From the NCBI GenBank assembly GCA_003241895.1, contig QBLY01000019.1, forward strand, positions 1 to 52,016: a DNA stretch of 52,016 bases, written 5' to 3'. A program made the position numbers and the translations under genes. Below the pieces are notes generated by a model. It was given only the letters and a program-made list of their open reading frames with translations, made no database searches and was not told the origin of the DNA. How positions within the stretch are numbered: position 1 is the first letter of the stretch; every line of letters begins with the position of its first letter. Positions 15,501 to 19,820 of the stretch are shown here, in pieces. This DNA is from Lysobacteraceae bacterium (GTDB lineage: Bacteria > Pseudomonadota > Gammaproteobacteria > Xanthomonadales > Xanthomonadaceae).

Positions 15501-17180
15501 TCACCCTGCGGCAGTCGCGGCCAGGTGCACCCCCGCCACCGCGCGCCCGGACGGATCGGCCGCGGCGGCGAACGCCGGGTCCCAGGCAATCGCCGCCGGG
15601 GATGAGCAGGCGATCGACTTGCCGCCGGGAATGGTGCGCGCGCAGGCGTCACCCGGGAACTCGCGCTCGAACAGTTCGCGGTACCAGTACGCTTCCTTGG
15701 TCTGCGGCGGGTTCACCGGGAAGCGCAGCTGGGCTTGCGCCAGCATCGAGTCACTGACGTGGCTTTCCGCGTGCGCCTTGAGGCCATCGATCCAGCCATA
15801 GCCCACGCCGTCGCTGAACTGTTCCTTCTGGCGCCACAGGATTTCATCGGGCAGCACGCCGGTGAAGGCTTCGCGCAGCACGGCTTTCTCGATGCGGCCC
15901 TTGCCGGCCATCTTGTGGGCGGCGTCCATGGACATCGCCAGGTCCATGAACTCAAGGTCCAGGAAGGGCACGCGTGCCTCCACGCCCCAGGCCATCATCG
16001 CCTTGTTGGCGCGCAGGCAGTCGTAGAGGTGCAGCGCGTCGAGCTTGCGCACGGTTTCTTCGTGGAAAGCCCGGGCGTCGGGCGCCTTGTGGAAGTAAAG
16101 GTAGCCACCGAAAATCTCGTCGGCGCCCTCGCCCGACAGCACCATCTTCACGCCCATGGCCTTGATGCGCCGCGCCAGCAGGTACATCGGCGTGGACGCA
16201 CGCACGGTGGTGACGTCGTAGCTTTCGATATGGCGGATCACGTCGGGCAGCGCATCCAGGCCTTCCTCGAAGCGGTAGGTGTAGCCGTGGTGCACCGTGC
16301 CCAGCGCCTTCGCCGCCACTTCGGCGGCCGCCAGGTCGGGGGAACCGTCCAGCCCGATCGCGAACGAGTGCAGGCGCGGCCACCAGGCTTCGCCGCGATC
16401 GTCGTCCTCCACGCGCTGGCGGGCGAAGCGCGCCGCGCAGGCCGTCACCAGCGACGAATCCAGCCCGCCCGACAGCAGCACGCCGTAGGGCACGTCGGTC
16501 ATCAGCTGGCGATGCACGGCCTGCTCGAAGCCCGCGCGCAGCGCTTCGGGCGACACCGACACGCCCTGCGTGGCCGCGTAGTCGCGCCAGGGCCTTTCAT
16601 GGAAGGCCACCAGCGTGCCCGTGGCGCTGTCGAACACGTGGCCGGGCGGGAACGGCGCCACGTCGGCGCAGTGGCGGGCCAGCGCCTTCATTTCCGACGC
16701 CACCCACAGGCGGCCGTCGGCGTCATGGCCCCAGTACAGCGGGCACACGCCCATCGGGTCGCGGGCGATGAGGTAGCGGCCCTGCGCCGCGTCCCACAGC
16801 GCGAAGGCGTAGATGCCGTTGAGCCGGGCAATGCCTTCGGCGCCTGATTGGCGATAAAGCGCGTTGATCACTTCGCAGTCCGAACCGGTCTGGAAGTCGT
16901 ACGGCTGGGTGAGCGCGCGCTCAAGCTCGCGGTGGTTGTAGATTTCGCCGTTCACCGCCAGCGCCAGCTCGCCGTCGGCCGAACGCAGCGGCTGGGCGCC
17001 GCCGGCCGGGTCCACGATGGCCAGTCGCTCGTGCACCAGCACGCAGCGTGCGTGCGTGTACACGCCCGACCAGTCGGGACCGCGATGGCGCTGGCGTGCC
17101 GACAGCGACAGGGCCAGCGGCCGCAGCGGCGCCAGGTCGGCGCCGGGGCGCAGGTCGAAGATTCCGAGGATCGAACACAT
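15501..17180 (-). CDS. asnB: Asparagine synthase (glutamine-hydrolysing)
   Basis: Makes asparagine from aspartate, ATP and glutamine. The 559-residue protein starts MCSILGIF; Cys2 is the glutaminase nucleophile exposed after Met removal, which fixes the start at 17180 despite an open frame upstream. The glutaminase domain (1 to about 200) contains RHRGPDWSG, HERLAIVD and NGEIYNH. The synthetase domain has the PP-loop LLSGGLDSSLV and the downstream GEGADEIFGGY segment. Length is close to E. coli AsnB (554). Upstream, on the same strand, lie an Asn-rich leader peptide and a terminator, so expression is probably attenuated when asparaginyl-tRNA is plentiful. Confidence 0.96.
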   Translation of the reverse strand: MCSILGIFDLRPGADLAPLRPLALSLSARQRHRGPDWSGVYTHARCVLVHERLAIVDPAGGAQPLRSADGELALAVNGEIYNHRELERALTQPYDFQTGSDCEVINALYRQSGAEGIARLNGIYAFALWDAAQGRYLIARDPMGVCPLYWGHDADGRLWVASEMKALARHCADVAPFPPGHVFDSATGTLVAFHERPWRDYAATQGVSVSPEALRAGFEQAVHRQLMTDVPYGVLLSGGLDSSLVTACAARFARQRVEDDDRGEAWWPRLHSFAIGLDGSPDLAAAEVAAKALGTVHHGYTYRFEEGLDALPDVIRHIESYDVTTVRASTPMYLLARRIKAMGVKMVLSGEGADEIFGGYLYFHKAPDARAFHEETVRKLDALHLYDCLRANKAMMAWGVEARVPFLDLEFMDLAMSMDAAHKMAGKGRIEKAVLREAFTGVLPDEILWRQKEQFSDGVGYGWIDGLKAHAESHVSDSMLAQAQLRFPVNPPQTKEAYWYRELFEREFPGDACARTIPGGKSIACSSPAAIAWDPAFAAAADPSGRAVAGVHLAATAAG

Positions 17181-17212
17181 GGGCTTACTCCGGTGGGTCG
17201 TTTCAAGGGCAC

Positions 17213-17248
17213 AAAAGGAAACGGCCCGCACTGTTCAGTGCGGGCCGT
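17213..17248 (-). terminator. Attenuator terminator hairpin upstream of asnB
   Basis: On the minus strand a 12-13-bp perfect stem (ACGGCCCGCACTG / CAGTGCGGGCCGT on plus, 17221-17248) with a tight loop is followed by TTTCCTTTTGT. It lies after the leader peptide stop and about 40 bases before the asnB start, so it must be bypassed for asnB expression. Its promoter-proximal arm can alternatively pair with 17287-17295 (9 bp including one G-U) to form an antiterminator. Confidence 0.85.
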
Positions 17249-17278
17249 CGGAGACTGGGGCGTTGGGGTGGAGCGCGC

Positions 17279-17395
17279 CTAGTCGTCGACCCGCAAGCGG
17301 GGACGATTATTGTTATTGGCGTTGTTGAGCGCGCAAGCACCGGAACCGGCGGGGTTCGAGGAGGCTTGGCTGGCAATGGCGGCGCGCTTGGACAT
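17279..17395 (-). CDS. Asparagine-rich leader peptide of the asnB attenuator
   Basis: A 38-codon reading frame starting MSKRAAIASQASSNPAG and ending in ALNNANNNNRPRLRVDD. Six of seven consecutive codons near the end (17306-17326 on the plus strand) are Asn, using both AAC and AAT, and a seventh Asn lies earlier. It ends 30 bases before a terminator hairpin that precedes asnB. This is the layout of classical amino-acid attenuators: ribosome stalling at Asn codons would cover the first arm (17297-17302), freeing the second arm (17287-17295) to pair with the terminator's first arm. Conservation in relatives was not checked. Confidence 0.82.
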   Translation of the reverse strand: MSKRAAIASQASSNPAGSGACALNNANNNNRPRLRVDD

Positions 17396-17401
17396 GGGCC
17401 A

Positions 17402-17431
17402 TCCTAGGCACAGTCCCCTCCCTCCCGCAAG
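17402..17431 (-). promoter_or_regulatory. Possible promoter of the asnB leader
   Basis: On the minus strand TTGCGG and TAGGAT are separated by 18 bases. The latter ends about 5 bases before the leader ATG, so transcription would start at or very near the A of ATG, giving a leaderless leader-peptide mRNA. Matches to consensus are modest, and the 46-base gap to the divergent acylase gene constrains where the promoter can lie. Confidence 0.35.
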
Positions 17432-17441
17432 CGACCCCTCC

Positions 17442-19820
17442 ATGCGCAAGGCTCTACGCGTCACCGGCTGGCTGTTGATGTCCCTGTTGGTCGTGGTCCT
17501 GGTCGCGTTGATGGTGGCGCTGTGGTTCGTGCGCGGCAGCCTGCCGCAGCTCGACGGCGACCGGGTACTGCCGGGCCTCTCGACCCAGGTGCAGGTACAG
17601 CGCGACGCGCTGGGCGTCGCCACGGTGGACGCCGCCAACGAGGCCGACGCGGCCAGGGCGCTGGGCTTCCTGCACGCGCAGGAACGTTACTTCGAAATGG
17701 ACCTGCTGCGCCGCTCGGCGGCGGGTGAGCTGTCGGCGCTGTTCGGGCCGATCGCGATCGAACGCGACAAGGTGGTGCGCGTGCATCGCCTGCGTGCGCG
17801 CGCCGACGACAGCCTGGCCGCCATCGCCGGCGACCGCCTGCCGGTGCTGGAGGCCTACCGCGACGGCGTCAACGCCGGCATGGCCGCACTTCACCGCAAG
17901 CCCTGGCCCTACCTGCTGCTGCAGGCCGAGCCCGAGCCGTGGACGGTAACCGACACCGCGCTGGCCGGCTATGCGATGTTCTTCGACCTGCAGGATGAAA
18001 CCAATTCGCGCGAACTGGCGCTGTGGCGCATCCGCGACGCCGTGCCGCCGGCGCTGTACGCGCTGGTGGCGATGGACGGCAGCCAGTGGGATGCGCCGCT
18101 GGTGGGCCCGGCGCGCGGCAACGTCGCCCTGCCCGGCCCCGGACTGCTGGACCTGCGCACGCTGCCAACGCCCGGGGCCGAGGCCGACTACGAAGTGTCC
18201 GAGCCGGCGGCGCCGGGCAGCAACAACTTCGCCGTGTCCGGCCAGCGCACCGCCGACGGCCGCGCCATCGTCGCCGACGACATGCACCTGGGCCTGCGTG
18301 CGCCCAACATCTGGTTCCGCGCGCGCCTGCGCTATGCCGACGCGCGCGCGCCGGGTGGAAAGGTGGACGTCAGCGGCTTCACCCTGCCCGGCATCCCGGC
18401 GGTCATCGTCGGCAGCAACGGCCACGTGGCCTGGGGCTTCACCAACAGCTACGGCGACTGGCTGGACTTCTACCGCGTGGACTGGGCCGACAAGGACCGC
18501 ACGCGCTATCGCGTGGCCGATGGCCAGCAGGCGCTGCGGGTCACCAGTGAATGGATCCGGGTGAAGGGCGGCGCGCCGGTGGAGCTCAAGGTGCGCGAGA
18601 CGCGCTGGGGCCCGATCACCGCCGAGCTCGACGACCGCACGTCGCTGGCGCTGCGCTGGACGGCGCAGCTGCCGGGTTCGCTGAACTTCGGGCTGGCCGA
18701 CCTGGCCTTCGCCGGCAACCTCGATGAAGGCCTCGCCGCCGCCGACCTGGCCGGCATCCCCGCCCAGAACCTGGTGATCGGCGACAGCACCGGCCGCATC
18801 GGCTGGCGCCTGACCGCGCAGTTGCCCGAACGCGCCGGCCAATGTGACCCCACCGCCCCGTTGGCCGTGGCCGACGGCTGCCGCTGGAACGGATGGCTGC
18901 CGGCCACCGAAAACCCCAGCCTGGTGGACCCGGCCGACGGCGTGCTGTGGACGGCCAACAACCGCACGCTGGACGGCGACGCGCTGCGCCTGGTCGGCGA
19001 CGCCGGCTACGCCAACGGCGCCCGCGCCCGCCAGATCCGCGACGCCCTGCTGGCCAAGGACAAGCTCACCGAGGCCGACCTGCTGGCGATCCAGCTCGAC
19101 GACCGCGCCCTGTTCCTGGCGCGCTGGCACCAGGCCCTGCTGGACGAGGCCACGCGCAGCCCCAGCGCCGACCTCACCGCGCTGGCGGACGCCGCGCGCA
19201 CCTGGGACGGCCGCGCCAGCGTCGATTCGGTCAGCTACCGCATCGTGCGCGGCTGGCGCTGGGAGGTAGTGGAAAGAATCCAGAACGGTCTGCTGGCGCC
19301 GGCCCAGGTGGCGCTGGGCGATCGCTTCGTCATGCCCGACCTGCCGCAGATGGAATCGGTGGCCTGGCCACTGCTGCAGCAGCGGCCGGCGCACCTGCTG
19401 CCGCGCAAGTTCGAAAGCTGGGACGCCCTGCTGGCCGACGCCGCGCGCGCCGTGCACGAGTCGATGGCGGCGCAGGGTCCGCTGGCGCAGCGCACCTGGG
19501 GTGAACGCAACACAGCATCCATCTGCCACCCCCTGGCCGGGGCACTGCCGGCGTTGGCCCGCGGCTGGCTGTGCATGCCGTCCGACCCACTGCCCGGCGA
19601 CGGCAACATGCCGCGCGTGCAGGGCCCTGGTTTCGGCGCCAGCCAGCGCATGGTGGTGTCGCCGGGCCACGAAGCCGAAGGTTTCATCCACATGCCCGGC
19701 GGGCAAAGTGGCCACCTGCTGTCGCCGTTCTGGGGCGCCGGCCACGCGGCCTGGGTCAACGGCGACGCCACGCCCTTCCTGCCGGGCCAGGCCGAATACC
19801 GCCTGCAGCTCAGCCCGTAA
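17442..19820 (+). CDS. Penicillin acylase (Ntn-hydrolase) family protein
   Basis: Amidase-type Ntn hydrolase, 792 residues, in the family that includes penicillin G acylases and N-acyl-homoserine-lactone acylases. The ATG at 17442 gives an N-terminal membrane segment or uncleaved signal (LLMSLLVVVLVALMVALWFV). The alpha-chain region has ALGFLHAQERYFEMDLLRR. The autocatalytic nucleophile is the Ser in PGSNNFAVSG (about Ser260), where the chain would be split to expose the beta-subunit. ADDMHLGLRAPN follows as usual. The end is HMPGGQSGHLLSPFW. Substrate (beta-lactam side chain, acyl-homoserine lactone or other amide) cannot be told from sequence. It is divergent from the asnB leader. Confidence 0.9.
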   Translation: MRKALRVTGWLLMSLLVVVLVALMVALWFVRGSLPQLDGDRVLPGLSTQVQVQRDALGVATVDAANEADAARALGFLHAQERYFEMDLLRRSAAGELSALFGPIAIERDKVVRVHRLRARADDSLAAIAGDRLPVLEAYRDGVNAGMAALHRKPWPYLLLQAEPEPWTVTDTALAGYAMFFDLQDETNSRELALWRIRDAVPPALYALVAMDGSQWDAPLVGPARGNVALPGPGLLDLRTLPTPGAEADYEVSEPAAPGSNNFAVSGQRTADGRAIVADDMHLGLRAPNIWFRARLRYADARAPGGKVDVSGFTLPGIPAVIVGSNGHVAWGFTNSYGDWLDFYRVDWADKDRTRYRVADGQQALRVTSEWIRVKGGAPVELKVRETRWGPITAELDDRTSLALRWTAQLPGSLNFGLADLAFAGNLDEGLAAADLAGIPAQNLVIGDSTGRIGWRLTAQLPERAGQCDPTAPLAVADGCRWNGWLPATENPSLVDPADGVLWTANNRTLDGDALRLVGDAGYANGARARQIRDALLAKDKLTEADLLAIQLDDRALFLARWHQALLDEATRSPSADLTALADAARTWDGRASVDSVSYRIVRGWRWEVVERIQNGLLAPAQVALGDRFVMPDLPQMESVAWPLLQQRPAHLLPRKFESWDALLADAARAVHESMAAQGPLAQRTWGERNTASICHPLAGALPALARGWLCMPSDPLPGDGNMPRVQGPGFGASQRMVVSPGHEAEGFIHMPGGQSGHLLSPFWGAGHAAWVNGDATPFLPGQAEYRLQLSP

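Follow-up and report, generated by a model that had tools for sequence, protein, structure and literature searches.

A predicted asparagine-specific leader-peptide attenuator upstream of asnB in Lysobacterales

Does the short asparagine-rich open reading frame (ORF) that precedes asnB at this locus take part in controlling the gene, and if so, by what mechanism? The system lies on the minus strand of the 52,016-nt stretch of DNA that was analyzed (the window), and all coordinates below are window positions. Direct reading of that strand gives, in order, a promoter-like pair, a 38-codon ORF, a 13-bp hairpin with a U-rich tail, and asnB, and the positions originally reported for the ORF, the Asn codons, the arms, and the hairpin all hold. 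The assignment of the gene as asnB proved correct, since a profile search against NF006949 (asparagine synthase B) returned 831.7 bits for its product with a cut-off of 499. Its ATG lies at 17180, 39 nt after the end of the hairpin, and the fold of 17210-17394 has a z-score of -3.8. The features discussed here are the following.

17425..17430, minus strand: predicted -35 element, TTGCGG (from the sequence; TTGCNN is the usual -35 at that place in relatives)
17401..17406, minus strand: predicted -10 element, TAGGAT (spacer of 18 nt; 5 nt upstream of the leader ATG)
17279..17395, minus strand: leader peptide ORF, 38 codons plus the stop TAG (ORF reading; counterpart ORFs in relatives)
17306..17326, minus strand: putative regulatory codons, NNANNNN, with three AAC and three AAT (direct reading)
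17297..17302, minus strand: arm 1, CCCCGC, able to pair with arm 2 in the window (local fold)
17287..17295, minus strand: arm 2, TGCGGGTCG, lying in the final codons of the leader (pairs with arm 3; covariation)
17237..17249, minus strand: arm 3, the 5' side of the terminator, of which 17239-17247 pairs with arm 2 (terminator scan; covariation)
17220..17232, minus strand: arm 4, the 3' side of the terminator (terminator scan; covariation)
17212..17219, minus strand: U-rich tail, UCCUUUUG (terminator scan)
15501..17180, minus strand: asnB, glutamine-hydrolysing asparagine synthase B, the gene predicted to be regulated (NF006949; Asn_synthase, GATase_7)

The leader is a short ORF rich in codons for asparagine, the amino acid that the enzyme encoded downstream makes. 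It runs from 17395 to 17279 and translates as MSKRAAIASQASSNPAGSGACALNNANNNNRPRLRVDD, ending at a stop codon (17281-17279). Codons 17326-17306 read AAC AAC GCC AAT AAC AAT AAT, which bears out the claim that Asn occupies six of seven consecutive codons. Another in-frame ATG lies 16 codons further upstream and would give a 54-codon leader; the 38-codon version is preferred because of the position of the promoter motif described below. Shuffling the 500-nt upstream region 2000 times never gave four Asn in eight codons, compared with six in the window, and a chance ORF was rejected on these shuffles together with the antisense-strand controls presented below. The leader peptide has no match in NCBIfam or Pfam. 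The pattern AAYAAYNNNAAYAAYAAY is found once in the source genome, at the asnB leader only, which speaks against several genes with such a leader there. Across 99 genomes of the family this codon-run pattern was uninformative, being present in 23 of them and with a reversed control pattern matching as well.

An intrinsic terminator is predicted between the leader ORF and the structural gene. The hairpin of 12 to 13 bp with a U-rich tail that had been described upstream of asnB was recovered with 13 pairs, as GACGGCCCGCACT-GAAC-AGTGCGGGCCGTT (17249-17220) followed by the tail TCCTTTTG, and 29 nt separate it from the stop codon of the leader. It is the sole terminator-like site in 17150-17550, for which the mean in shuffled sequences is 0.3. 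The U-tract is imperfect in the window, where it is interrupted and weaker than in many relatives.

The upstream region was then compared across relatives. Within the window's family (f1), 186 of 198 genomes have some asnB match at an E value of 0.001, weak paralogues included, and upstream DNA was compared for 130 full-length asnB copies among the matches listed. Our strict test demanded an ORF of 8 to 60 codons with at least three Asn in eight codons and then, within 90 nt, a hairpin with a T-rich tail. It was passed by 122 of these 130 loci (111 with four Asn) and, for the close asnB among the matches listed in two other families, by 28 of 28 (f12) and 3 of 3 (f2); the controls gave 0 of 520 for shuffles and 0 of 130 for the antisense strand. 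An Asn-rich leader upstream of asnB, for which the original prediction had proposed looking in relatives, is thus present in all three families. The misses in f1 include L011, L012, L023, L024, L058, and L096, which keep the leader and the hairpin and have a poor U-tract, and L059, which has fewer Asn, partly replaced by His. In another miss, L041, both elements fall outside the 500/360-nt limits of the test, the end of the leader being 422 nt and the hairpin 364-390 nt before asnB. About 16 f1 genomes with a much lower-scoring best match fall outside the 130; the one examined, G040 (L174), has no leader before its lower-scoring asnB.

Among the named loci of the clade (L228-L269, overlapping with the f1 and f12 sets), 38 of 40 pass the strict test, the misses L242 and L245 being of the poor U-tract type. 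The passing genomes include Stenotrophomonas maltophilia, Xanthomonas cannabis, Luteimonas, Lysobacter, Thermomonas, Dyella, Rhodanobacter, Fulvimonas, and Arenimonas malthae. Only 1 of 28 diverged asnB genes of the order (identity of at most 69%) passes. This one, L167 (G268, family f7), encodes an asnB at 64% identity and carries MFAIYNTINTTNNRLLRSAGSF plus a strong terminator. In L309 (G068), about 360 nt lie between the terminator and asnB, some 300 above the usual distance and likely due to an insertion, with leader and hairpin intact. The genus g14 loci L011, L012, L023, and L024, plus L242 and L245, show an interrupted U-tract, some of them with an overlapping alternative hairpin, and the output of leader and hairpin may differ in these loci. 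Two of 36 other named asnB (L278 and L285; L270-L306 without L272) and 1 of 18 further phylum members (L386; the antisense strand also gave 1 of 18) were taken as background, with only three Asn each; L377-L379, for which no start was found, are not in the counts.

The quality of the U-tracts bears on what the hairpin does. The same sensor could have another output, with the stalled ribosome acting on asnB translation or on Rho access instead of on an intrinsic terminator, as the interrupted U-tract of the window and the poor ones after the hairpins of the six f1 misses named above would allow. This reading is improbable given that the hairpin ends 39 nt from the asnB ATG in the window and lies at several hundred nucleotides from it in L041, and that a U-tailed terminator is found in most relatives.

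A promoter-like pair precedes the leader in nearly all relatives. Among 116 distinct leaders, 113 score at least 5.0 with a -10 element ending 4-8 nt before the ATG, a figure somewhat inflated by taking the best in-frame ATG per row, whereas the controls gave 31 of 559 for other ATGs and 24 of 696 for shifted positions. The pair mostly has TTGC at -35 and a spacer of 17-18, and the distance from -10 to ATG is 6 nt in 83 leaders and 7 nt in 23 (106 together). A stricter consensus promoter scan found no promoter at 17401-17430 in the window. Because the promoter-like motif sits just before the leader AUG in 113 of 116 leaders, transcription probably starts at or next to this AUG, i.e., the leader mRNA is predicted to be leaderless. 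This motif is also what bears on the proviso in the original prediction that transcription might start downstream of 17221. The divergent neighbor on the plus strand is a penicillin amidase gene (17442-19820); its start codon is 12-41 nt away from the promoter predicted for the asnB leader (17401-17444), and the two control regions may overlap.

A small leaderless mRNA raises the question of action in trans, since peTrpL and rnTrpL of Sinorhizobium are reported to act in part in this way. An Asn-rich peptide or a short attenuated RNA acting mainly in trans would share with rnTrpL (PMC7298713) the leaderless small mRNA predicted here. We give this possibility hardly any weight, as the N-terminal half of the leader peptide varies freely in relatives, judging by eye, and its C-terminal residues overlap arm 2.

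We then turned to the pairing of the arms. In a covariation alignment of 69 rows, one per distinct arm combination, 96.8% of the terminator cells are paired and 8 of 11 pairs are changed on both sides; the covariation is 0.425, compared with 0.231 in shuffles, and 0 of 500 shuffles reach it. Arm 2 was said to pair alternatively with arm 3 over 9 bp with one G-U, which is what we find, and this putative 2:3 antiterminator is mutually exclusive with the 3:4 terminator. When the last 45 nt of the leader are shuffled, 13 of 5000 sequences match arm 3 as well as the window does. In the 69 rows, 75.2% of the 2:3 cells are paired, compared with 25-44% when the pairing is slid by 1-3 columns, and none of 500 shuffles attains the 2:3 covariation score. 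Columns 23/94 of this pairing hold 63 G-C, 6 A-U, and no mismatch, and the arm 4 partner keeps G in five of the six A-U rows, so the match to arm 3 is kept more strictly by arm 2 than by arm 4. The number of 2:3 pairs with double-sided changes (5) is close to that in shuffles (4.3; matched by 191 of 500), and each of three outer pairs is mismatched in 37-43 of the 69 rows. As to the covarying arms that relatives were expected to show, the terminator covaries and the antiterminator covaries at its core.

The position of arm 2 was further analyzed with a free choice of arms per row, which covered 124 f1 rows (105 distinct) out of the 129 whose leader lies within 500 nt. L011, L012, L024, L037, and L056 were left out for having no CCYRC core in the chosen hairpin, and L041 for having no leader within 500 nt. 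In 77 of the 105 distinct rows, arm 2 and the leader end were separated by the same distance. When the position of arm 2 was instead fixed, 8 nt from the leader end (107 distinct rows), 61.9% was paired, compared with a maximum of 59.3 in 1000 permutations, and cognate arms 2 and 3 pair better than 2000 of 2000 and 1000 of 1000 permutations. The control with synonymous codons was weaker row by row: 26 of 105 rows have at most 5 of 100 random-codon controls as good (means of 19.1 vs 15.5), and the 2:3 match of a single row is therefore often explained by peptide and codon usage. Peptide, codon usage, and RNA pairing are intertwined, and single rows are too short to separate them.

This control lends something to the view that the hairpin is a constitutive terminator that only dampens or insulates asnB, next to a chance Asn-rich frame that is never read: a conserved hairpin by itself requires no leader, and many 2:3 matches do not go beyond their synonymous-codon controls. 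However, Asn runs recur at the same place in three families and are absent from the antisense strand and from shuffles, arm 2 covaries with arm 3, and the promoter motif keeps a fixed distance from the leader ATG. We thus consider a constitutive terminator unlikely.

In the original prediction, arm 2 also pairs with arm 1. This pairing is visible in the window fold, but across 105 relatives it is no stronger than with the upstream part shuffled (mean of 0.55 vs 0.61), and 1 row of 105 stands out. In our view, arm 1 is accessory to attenuation rather than defining, and the model works without it. The spacing among the Asn codons, arm 2, and the stop codon is tight in relatives: relative to the first base of the final Asn codon in the run, the arm 2 core begins 14 nt downstream in 57 rows and 17 nt downstream in 32, together 89 of 105. 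Counted from the first base of the A-site codon, a ribosome shields about 12-13 nt. Spacing and footprint together imply that arm 2 would be just free under a stall on the last Asn codon. The geometry thus fits a model in which a stall at the Asn codons would free arm 2 and a ribosome at the stop codon would cover it.

The breadth of leader and terminator, the covariation of arms 2 and 3, and the spacing of arm 2 give the proposed classical leader-peptide attenuation of asnB strong support from comparison. At the level of sequence, the ORF, the codon run, the terminator, the 2:3 pairing with its covariation, the spacing, and the breadth are established, and we consider it very probable that they make up a ribosome-mediated transcription attenuator specific for asparagine that controls asnB, a rating that was lowered slightly because of the synonymous-codon control. 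Promoter use, termination, stalling, and the response to asparagine are what we infer, as follows. Transcription would begin at or beside the leader AUG. With ample Asn-tRNA, the ribosome would pass the Asn codons and reach the stop codon, covering arm 2, so that arms 3 and 4 would form the terminator and transcription would stop upstream of asnB. With scarce Asn-tRNA, the ribosome would stall within the Asn run, its front edge immediately upstream of arm 2, and arm 2 would pair with arm 3; no terminator would form and asnB would be transcribed.

The codons themselves indicate what is sensed. In 125 distinct leaders, the 729 Asn codons comprise 349 AAU and 380 AAC, which interchange within runs, indicating that the amino acid is what is kept. 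A ligand-binding asparagine riboswitch using the same hairpins could likewise place a conserved structure ahead of a biosynthetic gene. However, little in the alignment is conserved apart from the arms and the codon run, and the feature that is kept is an amino acid in frame; a riboswitch is therefore highly improbable. Rfam gave no match at gathering score anywhere in the window, and a T-box or another Rfam family was rejected on this basis. AAU makes up 48% of leader Asn codons (leaders in L003-L132), compared with 10% in asnB (26 of 265; asnB genes found in L003-L032), in DNA of 64-74% G+C. This enrichment could reflect slow decoding, or a low tendency of the codon run to pair. The choice among synonymous regulatory codons matters in an attenuation model described in PMC1183508. 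As for asparagine supply, asparaginyl-tRNA synthetase (AsnRS) was found in the source genome by profile search (628.7 bits; cut-off 342.6) and above the cut-off in 39 of 41 genomes searched, and asnA had no hit in the source genome. Charging of Asn-tRNA is hence predicted to depend on free asparagine, of which asnB is probably the main internal source.

Similar arrangements were encountered outside the order. A Rubrivirga MAG (L272) and its relatives L315, L316, L345, and L346 carry Asn-containing leaders and terminators before asnB, and Rubricoccaceae-like Rhodothermota asnB pass the strict test in five of five cases (three of five with four Asn). L361 also passes, and its asnB frame is interrupted. 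None of the 19 other asnB of this Rhodothermota class (the class of G609) passes, this number comprising 17 asnB plus L360 and L363, with the duplicates L314, L321, L344, and L350 left out. For the pairing between leader and arm 3, the shuffles as good per 1000 were 21 for L316, 53 for L346, 101 for L315, 344 for L345, and 387 for L314, i.e., only one row of five (L316) is above 95% of shuffles, and the antiterminator of these loci is at most putative.

An asnB tree places the five Rhodothermota leader-bearers and the Lysobacterales leader-bearers in separate, starred clades; it holds 75 proteins chosen by hand, with L167 left out, and was built by a quick method with no bootstrap and with manually assigned leader labels. 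The label needs five changes on this tree, all forced by starred branches. Three of them are L227, L240, and L247, orthologues nested in the leader-bearing clade that have no leader upstream of asnB. Their contigs are labelled Deltaproteobacteria, Rhodococcus, and Holophagales, and they may represent transfer with leader loss or mislabelled bins. Asparagine might then be sensed through leaderless leader-peptide attenuation with at least two origins, in the Lysobacterales and the Rubricoccaceae-like asnB clades, unless the regulatory region was passed between phyla independently of asnB. We put this forward tentatively, as a reading that could well fall either way, and rate it lower because the 2:3 pairing in Rhodothermota is mostly not above shuffles.

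If the attenuator reading is true, asparagine joins the amino acids that have leader-peptide attenuators, and asnB of a large order (its named genomes include Xanthomonas, Stenotrophomonas, Lysobacter, Luteimonas, Dyella, and Rhodanobacter) has a predicted regulator that is absent from Rfam models. Whether an attenuator arose repeatedly could be tested on two separate asnB clades that both have an Asn leader and a terminator, and the AAU enrichment together with the predicted leaderless start would open codon-choice theory and leaderless translation in attenuation to direct tests.

Attenuators of this type are known, and the specificity for asparagine seems to be new. In enterobacteria they exist for his, trp, thr, leu, ilv, and phe and likewise rely on a ribosome-mediated switch between 2:3 and 3:4 pairing; they answer to other amino acids, and their leaders have ribosome-binding sites, unlike the predicted leaderless asnB leader. 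A 2004 survey of proteobacterial attenuators reportedly covered His, Trp, Thr, Phe, and branched-chain operons. By title or abstract, no asparagine leader-peptide attenuator was found in the open-access literature, subscription journals being mostly outside this scope. In Actinobacteria, leader peptides were likewise predicted by comparison and from codon runs ahead of trp, ilvB, leuS, and cys genes; the words asparagine and asnB are absent from that text (PMC1262725). The Gram-positive T-box of asnS and an Asn transporter also exerts control by tRNA-Asn charging, but there the tRNA binds the RNA directly, without a leader peptide (PMC2494555). The trp attenuator of Sinorhizobium meliloti, trpL/rnTrpL (PMC7298713), has a leader ORF with consecutive regulatory codons and two mutually exclusive RNA structures, as at asnB, but it differs in its amino acid (Trp instead of Asn), its 14-aa leader, its gene, and its lineage. 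Its RNA 5' end was measured at the ATG, making it leaderless (PMC7298713), whereas the leaderless start of the asnB leader is predicted only, from the spacing of the promoter motif.
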